Assembly (NCBI GenBank): GCA_022793375.1
Contig: JAAWCS010000015.1
Location: 1-64,000 of the forward strand
Direction: 5' to 3'
Length of the DNA: 64,000 bases
DNA from: Lachnospiraceae bacterium
Lineage (GTDB): Bacteria; Bacillota; Clostridia; Lachnospirales; Lachnospiraceae
The position numbers and the translations under genes were made by a program. Positions 118 through 28,978 of the stretch are shown piece by piece. Each line of letters starts with the position of its first letter. Within the stretch, counting starts at the first letter, position 1. Below the pieces are notes generated by a model. The model saw only the letters and a list, made by a program, of their open reading frames with translations. It was not told where the DNA came from and made no database searches.

Positions 118-637
118 TCATTGAGATTCCGAGAAGTTATACGCCAGCGTTCGGCAGATCGCCTTTAACAGACCCTGTGCCAGCTCTTCGCTCTCCCAGT
201 CCCGAAACCGCAGCAAGATAAACTGATCGTCTCTTTGGTATGTATGCGCAATCCAGGAAACCAGGCTCGATTTCCCCATTCCCGGCGCACCGGTAATCAG
301 CATCGCGGACGTACCCGGGCTGTTCGCAAATTTCCGAATCATCTGTTCCAAGGTATCGCCCTGGCGAATGTTTGTCTCCTCCGCCCGCCGGATGATCCCG
401 GTATTCCCGCAAAAGGATCTCCGCTGCTTCGTAGATCCTCTCCGGATCCTTTTCATAGCAATGATACGTAATCGTATGAAGTACCTGGACAAGAATCTTG
501 TAAATCTGTGAATATAGATTTTGATACGATTTATATCTGCCTTCGACAAAATTTTGTATAGCTGTTTTTGATATGTCAACTCCATCACTGATCAATTTTG
601 ATAAAAGGTCGCTTACGATCGCTCCTTCCAGTATCAT
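118..637 (-). pseudogene. STAND/NACHT-like P-loop NTPase fragment, frameshifted
   Basis: N-terminal part (MILEGAIVSDLLSKLISDGVDISK...IYEAAEILLREY) is in one minus frame and the Walker A part (RRAEETNIRQGDTLEQMIRKFANSPGTSAMLITGAPGMGKSSLVSWIAHTYQRDDQ) in another; frames switch near 375-415; stops soon after Walker A. Confidence 0.6.
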
Positions 638-790
638 TCGTAAATCCCTCCCTCTTTTGCAGATCAATCGACGGATTAGTTGCTCTTTTTACTAAATCCA
701 CTTTTATTTTAACAGATTCATATCCGAATAAAAAGAATCCGGCGGCAAAAATCATTTAAATTTTCCCGATCTTTAGCCCGCCCTTCATAC

Positions 791-816
791 AAAAAAAGGC
801 GGGACAGTCTCCCGCC
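791..816 (-). terminator. Rho-independent terminator for the CoA-disulfide reductase operon
   Basis: GGCGGGA-N5-TCCCGCC stem with T7 on the minus strand. Confidence 0.75.
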
Positions 817-862
817 CCGCACAAATACTTTTTTACCGATCCGTATTTTTCTATAAGCCGCC

Positions 863-4757: not shown

Positions 4758-5738
4758 TTATTGCGACGTCCCTTTCTGCTTTTTGCGTCCCCGCAGGATC
4801 GTAATCAGCGAAGGCAGCGCAATGGCTAACACGACTACAATGCCGCTCACGGCTTCCTGCCAGTAGACGTTTACGCCAAAGAGGACGATGACATTGGAAA
4901 TCAGACAGATGATGGCCGCGCCGATCATGGCCCCGATGGGCGTGCCCACGCCGCCGGTCAGCAGGATACCGCCGATTACACAGGCCGCAATCGAGTTCAT
5001 CGGCCAGTTGTTGCCGATGGCTGCCTGGGCCGTGCCCAGCCTGGCTACGTAGAGAATACCGGCCAGGGCCGAAATAAAGCCGACGATGCCATACAGAAGC
5101 ACCCGGATTGCGTCCACGCGGATGCCGATGATCTCGCTGGCCTCCCGGCTGTTGCCGATCGCATACACATACCGCCCCGTTTTTGTCTTTGTCGCAAACC
5201 ACACGATCCCTGCCAGCACCAGCACGGCAAAGTAGAAGGGAATCGGAATCGAAAACAGGTTTTCTTTTCCCAGGAAATAGATTTCCTCAGGAATGCCCGT
5301 GATCGCCCGGCCTTTGGTAATTACCAGCGTAATGCCGGCGTAAACGGACTGCATACCGATCGTCGCCACCATCGAATTCAGCTTCAGACGCGTAATCAAA
5401 AGGCCGTTGAAGCAGCCGAACAGGGTTCCCACCAGCAGGCCGAGAATCATTGATACGAAGGGGTTAATTTTTACTACCGTCATCATCAGACCGCATAGAA
5501 CGCCGGACAGCGTCGCGATTTTGCCGACCGACAGATCCAGCTCGCCGATCAGCAGCAGCAGCGACTGCGCCACCGCGACCATGCCAATAAACGCAATATC
5601 CCTTAGCAGCGACTGCAGGTTGAAAATATCCAGAAAATACGGTGAAAATACGCTGGCAACAATCAGCATCAGTACCAGGACCAGGGCCGCCAGCGCCGTA
5701 CTGCTCTTGAAAAACGTTTTTACAATTGACTTTTTCAT
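4758..5738 (-). CDS. Sugar ABC transporter permease (RbsC-like)
   Basis: Multi-TM, ELDLSVGKIATLSGVLCG, YAIGNSREASEIIGIRV motifs. Confidence 0.92.
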   Translation of the reverse strand: MKKSIVKTFFKSSTALAALVLVLMLIVASVFSPYFLDIFNLQSLLRDIAFIGMVAVAQSLLLLIGELDLSVGKIATLSGVLCGLMMTVVKINPFVSMILGLLVGTLFGCFNGLLITRLKLNSMVATIGMQSVYAGITLVITKGRAITGIPEEIYFLGKENLFSIPIPFYFAVLVLAGIVWFATKTKTGRYVYAIGNSREASEIIGIRVDAIRVLLYGIVGFISALAGILYVARLGTAQAAIGNNWPMNSIAACVIGGILLTGGVGTPIGAMIGAAIICLISNVIVLFGVNVYWQEAVSGIVVVLAIALPSLITILRGRKKQKGTSQ

Positions 5739-7237
5739 TGCGGTAGTTCCTCCTTTTGTAACGTAAGTCCAAAAATCGACTGCATGATCTCCTCTTTATC
5801 CGCCCCCTGCTCAAATTCGCCGGCAATTCTTCCATTGTACATGGCGATAATCCGATTGGAACATTTCAAAACTTCATCCATCTCCGAAGAAACGAGAATG
5901 ATTCCGGCGCCGGTCTCCTCCGCAATCCGCTTCATCAGGCGATAGATATCCACCTTCGTACCGATATCAATTCCCTTGGTCGGCTCGTCAAAAATCAGCA
6001 GCTTGGGCTTTGCTTTCATACAGCGGCCGATAATGGCTTTTTGCTGGTTGCCGCCGCTTAAAAATTTGATCTTCTGTTCCAGATCCGGCGTCTTTATCTC
6101 ATAAGTGCCGACGATTTCTTCGGCCAGCTTTTTTTCCTTCTCCGTGGAAATGCCCAGAGAGCCGCGGACCTGATCGAGCGCGTTCACCGACGCATTCACC
6201 CGCACGCTCAGCTCCGAGAGAATCCCCTGGCTGCGGCGCTCCTCCGGCAGATAGAACATCCCTTTCTCCACCGAGGAATGCGTGCTGCCCAGCCGCCAGG
6301 GCTTTCCGTCGAATTCCACACTTCCTTCATAGACCGGCAAATATCCGAAAACGGCCTGCATCAGTTCGCTGCGCCCTGCTCCTACCAGGCCGGCGAAGCC
6401 TAAAATCTCTCCTTTACGCAGGGAAAAACTCACCTGCGAAAAATCGTCGCCTGTCAGACCCTTGACATTCAGCAAAACCTCTTCCTGAACAGCCGTGGAG
6501 GAAAACTCTTCTTTCTCATCCAAGGAACGCCCTGTCATCTGGGCGACGACCCAGGATACGTCCACCTCGTCCAGGCGCGCATAGGAAACCTTTTTGCCGT
6601 TGCAGAACACGGAAATGCAATCCCCGATGCGGAACACCTCATCCAGCTTATGCGAAATGAAGATCACCGCTTTTCCTTCTTTTTTCAATTTTTCCACAAT
6701 ACTGAATAAATGCTCCGTATCCTTGTCCGTCAGGCTGGTGGTCGGCTCGTCTAACATCAGCACTTGGTAGTCCTCAAAGGCCGTAGCGCGCGCAATCTGC
6801 AAAAGCTGCTGCTGCGAGACCGGTATGTCTTTTACCAGCGTCTCCGGCTCCACGGTCATGCCCAGCTCTTCCAGCAAAGGAACGGCCTTCTCACAGAGTT
6901 TCTTCTGGCTGATCGGCCCCCGGATCCCTGCCCGCTCAAAAGGAATAAAGAGATTCTCCGCCACGGACATATTTTTAAACAAATCTATTTCCTGCGGAAC
7001 GTAAGCAATTTTCTCAAACAACTTACGATTTTTTTTAACAGACTGCGCCTCGATAAAAATGTCTCCTTCGTCCGCCGTATAAACTCCGGTCAAACATTTG
7101 ATCAGCGTACTCTTTCCCGCGCCGTTCTCGCCGACGATGCAGTGAACCTCGCCCGGCTCAAAAGCAATGTCCACCCGGTCAAGTGCGCAAACCCCTGGAA
7201 AACGTTTCGTTATTTCTTTCGCTTCCAGAATAACCAT
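5735..7237 (-). CDS. Sugar ABC transporter ATP-binding protein, duplicated ABC cassettes (RbsA/MglA-like)
   Basis: Walker A GENGAGKSTLIKCLTG, second cassette LSGGNQQKAIIGR, KGIDIGTK. Confidence 0.93.
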   Translation of the reverse strand: MVILEAKEITKRFPGVCALDRVDIAFEPGEVHCIVGENGAGKSTLIKCLTGVYTADEGDIFIEAQSVKKNRKLFEKIAYVPQEIDLFKNMSVAENLFIPFERAGIRGPISQKKLCEKAVPLLEELGMTVEPETLVKDIPVSQQQLLQIARATAFEDYQVLMLDEPTTSLTDKDTEHLFSIVEKLKKEGKAVIFISHKLDEVFRIGDCISVFCNGKKVSYARLDEVDVSWVVAQMTGRSLDEKEEFSSTAVQEEVLLNVKGLTGDDFSQVSFSLRKGEILGFAGLVGAGRSELMQAVFGYLPVYEGSVEFDGKPWRLGSTHSSVEKGMFYLPEERRSQGILSELSVRVNASVNALDQVRGSLGISTEKEKKLAEEIVGTYEIKTPDLEQKIKFLSGGNQQKAIIGRCMKAKPKLLIFDEPTKGIDIGTKVDIYRLMKRIAEETGAGIILVSSEMDEVLKCSNRIIAMYNGRIAGEFEQGADKEEIMQSIFGLTLQKEELPQ

Positions 7238-7250
7238 CTTTCACTCTCCT

Positions 7251-7509
7251 TTCCTTAGTAACGTCCGTGTTCTCAGGACATAATGGGATACCCTTGCGGT
7301 ATTTCCTTAGTAACGTCCGTGTTCTCAGGACATAATGGGATACCCTTGCGGTATTTCCTTATTTATGTCCGTGTTTCCAGGACATAATGGGATACCCTTG
7401 TGGTATTTCCTTATTTATGTCCGTGTTTCCAGGACATAATGGGATACCCTTGCGGTATTTCTATTGGTGTCCGTGTTCTTAAAACATAGCGGATACCCGT
7501 AGTAATTTC
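7251..7509. repeat. Tandem array of five 52-bp units (fifth degenerate), each containing two hairpins
   Basis: ttccttagtaacGTCCgtgttctcaGGACataatgggATACCcttgcGGTATt repeated with exact 52-bp period starting at 7251, 7303, 7355, 7407, 7459. Confidence 0.95.
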
Positions 7510-7673
7510 TTGGCTTTTACTATTTAATAGATTGCCTGCAATTAGTACTTTACACTTGCAGGCAATCAATGCTTTTGTTTATTATACAGCTAATTATACA
7601 ATTTTGCAAGAGATTTGATTGCTGATTTTTTACTTTTTTTACAAAATAAAGCTGGATTTTTCCCAAAGCAGAT

Positions 7674-25247: not shown

Positions 25248-25757
25248 TTACAGCGTCAGAGACGGCGCCGAATAAACGCGGGCACCCAGCTCGCTGTTTA
25301 ACATATAAAGGCCCTTGGCATCCGTGCCAAACAACTCCATCTTCGTAATCATATCCGAAGCGTTCTTCTCTTCCTCGCCCTGCTCCTTGACAAACCAGTC
25401 AAGCAGCTGCATCGTGCGGAAATCCTTCACCTCGAAAGCCGCGGCATAGATGTCGTTAATCAGAGAAGTCACATACTGCTCATGCTCCAGGCCAGCCTTT
25501 AAGGGCGCCATATTGTCCTTCAGCTCCTTGTCCGGTTTCGCGATCGCCTCAAACGTCACCTTCTGGCCGTTATTCTGCAGATACTGATAGAACAGCATCG
25601 CATGATCGCGTTCCTCCTGCGCCTGAATCTTATACCAGTTCTCAAAACCGTCCAAGCCGACGGAGGCATAATAATTGGCAAAATCCAGGTACAAATAGGC
25701 CGAATAAAACTCCTTGTTAATCTGCTCGTTCAGCAAGTCAGCCACTTTCTGATCCAT
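25248..25757 (-). CDS. Ferritin-like non-heme iron storage protein
   Basis: LLNEQINKEFYSAYLYLDFANYYASVGLDGFENWYKIQAQEERDHAMLFYQYL; start placed at MDQKVADLL after GAAAGGAG rather than at the ORF-track M inside the upstream repeat. Confidence 0.93.
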   Translation of the reverse strand: MDQKVADLLNEQINKEFYSAYLYLDFANYYASVGLDGFENWYKIQAQEERDHAMLFYQYLQNNGQKVTFEAIAKPDKELKDNMAPLKAGLEHEQYVTSLINDIYAAAFEVKDFRTMQLLDWFVKEQGEEEKNASDMITKMELFGTDAKGLYMLNSELGARVYSAPSLTL

Positions 25758-25773
25758 AGTATGTATAACTCCT

Positions 25774-25860
25774 TTCATCTGTCTGCCCGTGTTCTCAGGG
25801 CATGGTGGTACACCCTTGCGGTGTTTCATCTGTCTGCCCGTGTTCTCAGGGCATGGTAGT
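25774..25860. repeat. About 1.7 tandem copies of a 51-bp two-hairpin repeat in the ferritin 5' leader
   Basis: ttcatctgtctGCCCgtgttctcaGGGCatggtggtACACCcttgcGGTGTt then a second ttcatctgtctGCCCgtgttctcaGGGCatggtagt; same family as 7251-7509. Confidence 0.9.
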
Positions 25861-25953
25861 ACGCTGGGCTTATTGTACTACGATTTTTCTGAGAATGCAA
25901 GACGTTTCCTGCAAGCTGCTTTCAGGCTTCCTGTGGGAATACTCATTTCCATA

Positions 25954-28019: not shown

Positions 28020-28943
28020 CTACAATTTGAAACAGTCAAGTTCCGCCGCCCGATACTTTTCCCGAAGCGCCCTCAACTCCTTCTTCAATTCCGTAAGTTC
28101 CTCTTCCTTATAATTATAGAACGGCCGCCGGGAATATCCCGACTCCAGTCCGCGCCAATTCATTACATTGTGCAGGATGCTCGGAAAATCGTATTTCAGA
28201 CAGGCAAAGATAAATTGGTCCGCCAGCTTCTGCAGGCGCATCCCCTCACGGATGTCGCTCTCCTTAACCGCCTTTACGATCTTCTGGTACAGATCGGGAA
28301 TCGCATTGTAAAACGAACCGATGATCCCGTCCGCCCCGGCGCACAATCCCGAAAACGCCATCTCGTCACAGCCCGAGTAGATCATAAAATCCGGGCCCAG
28401 CATTTCTTTCAGACAGCCCATCTCGTCGTGGCTGCGCGCCGTATACTTCAGGCCCTTTACACGCGGCAGGCCGGCAATCTTTAAAATCAAATCCATATCC
28501 ATGATCCCGGCCAGGACGATATTGTAGACGACCAGCGGAATCTCCACCGATTCGGACAAATCCCTGTAATACCCGTAGATATCCTCCTTCTTAAACCTCC
28601 AGTAAAAAGGCGGCACCGAAGAAATCGCGTCCGCCCCCGCGGCCTCGGCCTGCTTCGCCAGCTCGATCGACTTTTTGGTCCCGATATCGCCCACATGGAC
28701 AATCACCGGCCTTCTGCCGTTTACATGATCGATCACGGTTTCCACGACATGCATCCGCTCTTTCATCGTCATTGTAAAGCACTCGCCGGTACTGCCGGTC
28801 AAATAAAAGCCGTCCGCCCCGTTTTCCATCATAAAATCGAGCATGGCCCGCATACAGCCGTCGTCCACCTCTTCCTTGGAATCAAAAAAGGTCATCAGGG
28901 CCGGAATCACCCCTTTTATCTCAGTAATGTCATATTTTGCCAT
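28020..28943 (-). CDS. DHDPS/N-acetylneuraminate lyase family protein
   Basis: GVIPALMTFFDSKEEVD, GSTGECFTMTMKER, YNIVLAG, GLKYTARS, GCDEMAFSGLCAGADGIIGSFYN. Confidence 0.88.
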   Translation of the reverse strand: MAKYDITEIKGVIPALMTFFDSKEEVDDGCMRAMLDFMMENGADGFYLTGSTGECFTMTMKERMHVVETVIDHVNGRRPVIVHVGDIGTKKSIELAKQAEAAGADAISSVPPFYWRFKKEDIYGYYRDLSESVEIPLVVYNIVLAGIMDMDLILKIAGLPRVKGLKYTARSHDEMGCLKEMLGPDFMIYSGCDEMAFSGLCAGADGIIGSFYNAIPDLYQKIVKAVKESDIREGMRLQKLADQFIFACLKYDFPSILHNVMNWRGLESGYSRRPFYNYKEEELTELKKELRALREKYRAAELDCFKL

Positions 28944-28959: not shown

Positions 28960-28978
28960 TGCCCGTGTTCTCAGGGCA
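28960..28978. repeat. Single-hairpin copy of the dispersed repeat, 5' of the DHDPS/NAL gene
   Basis: TGCCC-GTGTTCTCA-GGGCA, identical hairpin to the ferritin-leader copies. Confidence 0.85.

Follow-up and report, generated by a model that had tools for sequence, protein, structure and literature searches.

REP/RAYT elements are short dispersed hairpins that form tandem clusters between genes. The TAACTGA direct repeats of Beggiatoaceae, Cyanobacteria, and Bacteroidetes lie at start codons and supply stop codons to upstream genes, and a translational role has been proposed for them (PMC4679880). At the integron attI1 site, a tiny leader open reading frame (ORF) with its own Shine-Dalgarno sequence (SD), ORF-11, passes ribosomes to the gene that follows; the start codon and SD of this ORF are important, and its amino acids hardly so (PMC8876359). 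In termination-reinitiation at cistron junctions (PMC6728339) and in the uORF (upstream ORF)-dependent case of M. tuberculosis PPE2 (PMC11260477), an upstream stop codon lies near the downstream SD and start, and the same ribosome reinitiates. Here, we analyzed a repeated two-hairpin module, with hairpins A and B, in the leader of a ferritin gene of Lachnospiraceae bacterium, within the first 64,000 nucleotides of contig JAAWCS010000015.1 (GCA_022793375.1; the window).

The evidence strongly supports a leader module that is real, structurally constrained, and located at the starts of cistrons in Lachnospiraceae; it is apparently undescribed, as sequence and topic searches of the open literature found no account of it. 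We have moderate confidence that it acts at the level of translation. The reading that we favor, with a probability of about 0.42, is a cis-acting mRNA leader module whose start-stop cistron passes ribosomes to the next SD; we infer reinitiation from the features described below.

The module and its placement

The minus-strand ferritin leader (~25860-25776) contains two units 51 bp apart in the hairpin order A-B-A and reads ACTACC-ATG-CCC-TGAGAACAC-GGGCA-GACAGATGAA-ACACC-GCAAG-GGTGT-ACCACC-ATG-CCC-TGAGAACAC-GGGCA-GACAGATG-AAAGGAG-TTATACATACT-ATG. The first unit (25835-25854; covariance-model match 25834-25865) comprises an AUG at 25854-25852 and hairpin A, with loop TGAGAACAC and a UGA at 25848-25846; the final two A's of its linker are part of stem B or its flank. 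Hairpin B (25810-25824; arms 25824-25820/25814-25810) matches the covariance model at 25783-25825, and the second unit (25784-25803; AUG 25803-25801, UGA 25797-25795) was recognized by sequence and covariance model. Stem A, GCCC/GGGC, lengthens by one pair to TGCCC/GGGCA (25853-25849/25839-25835 and 25802-25798/25788-25784). The terminal linker and SD span 25769-25783, so that the last unit stands directly before the SD of the ferritin gene (AAAGGAG, 25775-25769), as the initial annotation had claimed; the start codon follows at 25757-25755 (PF00210; gene 25251-25757, minus strand). This single leader folds weakly (z -1.65), and its minimum-energy fold joins both A units, while the centroid is A-B-A. 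As for the expression platform of a riboswitch (a terminator or a sequestered SD), the SD is unpaired in the predicted fold of this one leader, and the sequence downstream of the hairpins lacks a U-run.

Chance is excluded as the source of the repeats, since the window holds 8 matches at up to 2 mismatches versus 1.13 expected and the 3.42-Mb host genome holds 78 exact cores versus 0 for a reversed control. A covariance model built on B+A, with 150 candidates scored per genome so that high counts are lower bounds, found at least 188 units in the host, at least 153 in its sister species (G004), 26 in G006, and 8 in G005. Three further congeners gave 0 to 3 matches, and those read out look like chance; exact-core matches in G028 and G017 were likewise set aside as looking like chance. 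On 145.6 kb of the window's contig, 12 loci reached E < 0.01, which extrapolates to ~280 loci per genome. Rfam 15 returned only tRNA for the window, nothing for the leader at E ≤ 5, and nothing over the module in ten distant loci, placing it outside the Rfam families.

The initial annotation read the ferritin stems (GCCC/GGGC and ACACC/GGTGT, versus GTCC/GGAC and ATACC/GGTAT elsewhere) as the product of compensatory change, and covariation bears this out. Double-sided changes filled 18 cells versus 6.3 in shuffles in one alignment (A1) and 76 versus 22.7 in another (A3), and the stem pairs covary beyond both shuffled and slid controls. Forty host arrays carry GCCC/GGGC and 11 carry GTCC/GGAC; none of the 35 multi-unit arrays is mixed, and linkers are 79% identical within arrays versus 52% between them. 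Because the units of one array are homogenized, the array and not the unit is the independent event. At the orthologous array L045/L068, one species carries GCCC/GGGC in its two units and the other carries GTCC/GGAC in each of its four, from which it follows that a paired change spread through an array. The covarying pairs and strictly sense orientation indicate that the structure is selected, with RNA as the simplest level to assume. In most distant copies (L199, L206, L211, L222, and others), stem B reads ACACC...GGTAT, which leaves one pair as a C-A mismatch; the mismatch is present in 65 of 112 distinct rows obtained with a search pattern that permitted but did not demand it.

Placement statistics rest on loci retrieved around exact copies, together with 145.6 kb of a single contig, with a gene start defined as an ORF of ≥100 codons with an SD, 8 to 45 nt downstream. 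Among the 51 host arrays whose flanks were long enough, 44 have such a start on the same strand and none has one on the opposite strand, while random positions satisfy this test in 6% of cases; orientation and placement are not random. For about half of the arrays, an upstream same-strand ORF is no more than 60 nt away; about half lie in longer gaps. The downstream genes encode ferritin, DHDPS, ABC and MatE transporters, leucyl-tRNA synthetase, ThiC, acetate kinase, thioredoxin, cyclophilin, and others. No functional theme or regulon was seen among these ~45 genes, and the related targets expected of a metabolite riboswitch are replaced by a mixture. The module is found inside operons, in long leaders, and behind a T-box, which argues that it is independent of transcription control.

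The window contains two further loci, each preceding a minus-strand gene as the ferritin array does. A five-unit array (7261-7517, minus strand), with GTCC/GGAC and ATACC/GGTAT stems read over 7261-7459 and its distal unit decayed, precedes an ABC-transporter ATPase gene (5738-7237). A lone AUG and hairpin A, without B (28960-28979, minus strand), precedes a DHDPS-family gene (28023-28943), confirming the single-hairpin third copy of the initial annotation. The loops had been described as invariant: the A loop TGAGAACAC is common to the ferritin and ABC-transporter arrays, but two units of the latter read TGGAAACAC. Elsewhere, a Mediterraneibacter locus (L253:2738-3170, minus strand) has a T-box that leads straight into a three-unit array upstream of pheS, called from its N-terminus, so that two leader devices are stacked. 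At L055 (~600-850, plus strand), a strongly diverged array with the B stem GGCCCCC...GGGTTCC lies before a gene beginning MVRAIVGANWGD, which resembles adenylosuccinate synthase and is a putative assignment.

Start codon, stop codon, and proposed mechanism

The initial annotation, which listed a riboswitch among its options, overlooked an AUG at the foot of hairpin A, a UGA in the A loop, and an SD-like linker before B, and these together favor translation over a riboswitch. Using a search pattern that ended at ACC, ahead of the triplet in question, we recovered 37 non-own copies from 13 genomes. The triplet three bases past ACC was ATG in 35 of them and GTG and ATA in one each, while the three intervening bases vary; the start codon upstream of the gene that termination-reinitiation calls for is thus present. 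Among copies found without requiring AUG, pairs 3 and 5 of hairpin A take all four types (CG, UA, GC, and AU), and pairs 1 and 2, which involve the U and G of AUG, are constant save for A to G opposite U. In host copies, the T of ATG is retained even when C or T stands opposite it in the stem. The constancy of AUG despite a varying and mismatched stem indicates that something beyond pairing maintains it. AAGGAAA or AGGAGG purines stand ahead of B in most units and, judged from the sequence, would lie ~8 nt from the AUG with B folded. The loops of hairpin B differ (GCAAG, UUCG-like, and others) yet pairing is kept, as expected of a spacer hairpin.

All 42 leaders of the host and its sister have a stop in the AUG frame before the gene, compared with 5 and 9 of 42 for the other two frames. 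Closure is by UGA at codon 3 in 38 leaders and by another stop in four, and the ORF is mostly AUG-CCC-UGA or AUG-UCC-UGA. In other genera, the AUG frame is closed in 38 of 59 leaders versus 15 and 22 in the other frames. The loop UGA also serves genes upstream: six host ORFs enter an array and end exactly there, as does one in another species (L109 of G006). The host ORFs include a phosphoribosyl-pyrophosphate synthetase-like gene (L049), an ABC ATPase (L053), a TetR regulator (L068), and a PTS-domain regulator (L074); Pfam matches were not found for L056 and L062. At L049, L062, and L074, coding sequence takes the place of the AUG and 5' stem and the module resumes from the UGA, and at L049 and L062 the module is shortened behind the A loop. 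A termination-reinitiation module would predict such upstream ORFs, in few cases here and with some of the ORFs unconfirmed as genes. At L160 and L181, from two genera, the module AUG is in frame with a putative excisionase-like gene (MDNKFIRVDEVAQELS), where an N-terminal extension could arise.

According to the mechanism that we propose, a unit would begin with an SD-like linker (..AAGGAAA) and hairpin B, continue through ACCNNN and the AUG to hairpin A, and end in the next linker, which would supply the SD for either the gene or the unit that follows. Hairpin A begins with two pairs that involve the U and G of this AUG, and folding of B would bring the SD-like purines to ~8 nt from the AUG. 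Ribosomes initiating there would terminate immediately in the A loop (AUG-NCC-UGA in the host genus), ~40 nt ahead of the gene start, and would reinitiate at the strong SD of the gene; those arriving from an upstream gene would terminate at the loop UGA as well. Units multiply in tandem and are homogenized within arrays, and their number may tune output. A wider proposal is more tentative: portable, tandemly multiplying minimal cistrons (SD, bridging hairpin, and AUG-NCC-UGA) would precede a sizeable fraction of genes in some Lachnospiraceae and capture ribosomes for reinitiation, and unit number would be a dial by which expression can evolve.

Several observations weigh against this mechanism. 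The ferritin linker GACAGATGAAA has no good SD, some sites have A without B, and the purine SD-like sequence is inconsistent ahead of the 5'-most unit. Initiation could be hindered by the position of the AUG, part of which lies within hairpin A. The loop sequence alone could account for conservation of the UGA in the host; in other genera, the UGA is frequently missing, 21 of 59 AUG frames run into the gene, and when codon-3 stops are excluded, closure in 16 of 37 versus 11 and 11 is a small excess.

Distribution and rival explanations

The host-trained covariance model detected the module in a patchy set of 19 of 299 Lachnospiraceae genomes at E ≤ 1e-4, and in an order-level genome draw the matches were confined to Lachnospiraceae. 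The exact pattern matched at least 111 stretches in GTDB genomes; among the matches listed, the specific titles are Lachnospiraceae (Lacrimispora, Diplocloster, Enterocloster, Mediterraneibacter, Butyrivibrio, and uncultured Lachnospiraceae), and the remaining titles say just Clostridia or Clostridiaceae. Hairpin B commonly reads ACC-CUNCG-GGU in other genera, where the stems and loops of A are very different (e.g., TGGCGTG-AGGGA-CACGCCA and TGCTG-AAAAA-CAGCA). Mimicry of 16S helix 12, suggested by a possible resemblance, was dropped because other genera carry unrelated loops in the module.

Between species that are 83 to 86% identical, about seven of the compared sites are common and six differ, empty ones included (filled/empty comparisons L115/L081, L106/L086, and L126/window 59.6 kb). 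In G006, the ferritin ortholog is preceded by no more than a decayed hairpin, and no hairpin was found at the more distant ferritins of G001 and G003. The L092/L081 region is 94% identical between G000 and G004 (83 to 86% elsewhere), with arrays of 2 versus 3 units, suggesting a possible recent exchange. The initial annotation's notion of a mobile repeat associated with ribosome-binding sites agrees with this turnover of site occupancy between sister species, but neither a mobility enzyme nor a clean insertion signature was found. A target-site duplication was considered, as linkers repeat in arrays and flank single units; however, a clean duplication cannot be claimed, since AAGGAAA belongs to the conserved sequence of the module itself.

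These data bear on a rival reading in which the module is a dispersed selfish repeat, tolerated or preferentially inserted just ahead of SDs, with a structure that serves spreading and not the host. Such an element would fit the high copy number in two species when congeners have few copies or lack them, the occurrence of both filled and empty sites at orthologous positions, the lineage-specific consensus sequences, and the tandem growth. Antisense or 3'-end copies were not found, however, several sites are retained in orthologs across species, searches of phages, plasmids, and viral contigs gave no match, and the Y1 transposase of REP/RAYT type (PF01797) was found in 0 of 7 congeners, with control genomes positive. 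We consider this explanation unlikely, and somewhat less so one in which a trans-acting factor, protein or small RNA, binds the foot and loop of A and controls translation jointly, with tandem units as multiple sites. Such a factor would account for A loops that are common across host sites while stems differ with compensation, for the tendency of lineages toward their own loop, and for placement at the SD; it leaves the absence of a functional theme downstream as a difficulty and does not by itself explain frame closure or an AUG so constant that GTG is one of only two substitutes. Least probable of the three is a 5'-leader stabilizer that shields mRNA or marks processing sites between cistrons: stable capped hairpins just 5' of genes, operon-internal sites included, suit that role, but the fixed AUG, frame closure, and fixed SD distance would all go unexplained.

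If the start-stop reading is right, leaders of a major gut family hold an uncatalogued, reusable translation module, and two ideas become testable, namely, that dipeptide start-stop cistrons act as ribosome loaders and that many genes are tuned via the copy number of a leader repeat. For annotation, module start codons can be mistaken for gene starts. The ferritin reading frame stays open as far upstream as an in-frame ATG at 25829 within the array linker (25248-25829, 193 amino acids), and automatic annotation may choose this start for the longest ORF instead of 25757, which a good SD serves.

Comparison with known systems

Like REP/RAYT elements, the module is a short dispersed hairpin structure clustered in tandem; unlike them, it is strictly sense and abuts the SD, in a genus where the Y1 transposase was not found. 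The nearest described case is the TAACTGA family (PMC4679880), which shares the position at start codons and the provision of stops to upstream genes. TAACTGA units, however, are 7 nt long and unstructured and mostly replace the SD, whereas the units described here are 51 to 53 nt long, lack the heptamer organization, contain two covarying hairpins and a conserved AUG, and keep the SD. In the cistron-junction and PPE2 cases (PMC6728339 and PMC11260477), stop and start overlap and the evidence is experimental, while here they are ~40 nt apart and the coupling is inferred. The nearest demonstrated mechanism is that of integron ORF-11 (PMC8876359), a tiny leader ORF with an SD of its own. ORF-11 is a single, site-bound ORF of 11 codons; the Lachnospiraceae module would instead present dispersed, tandem two-codon ORFs between hairpins, with translation predicted.
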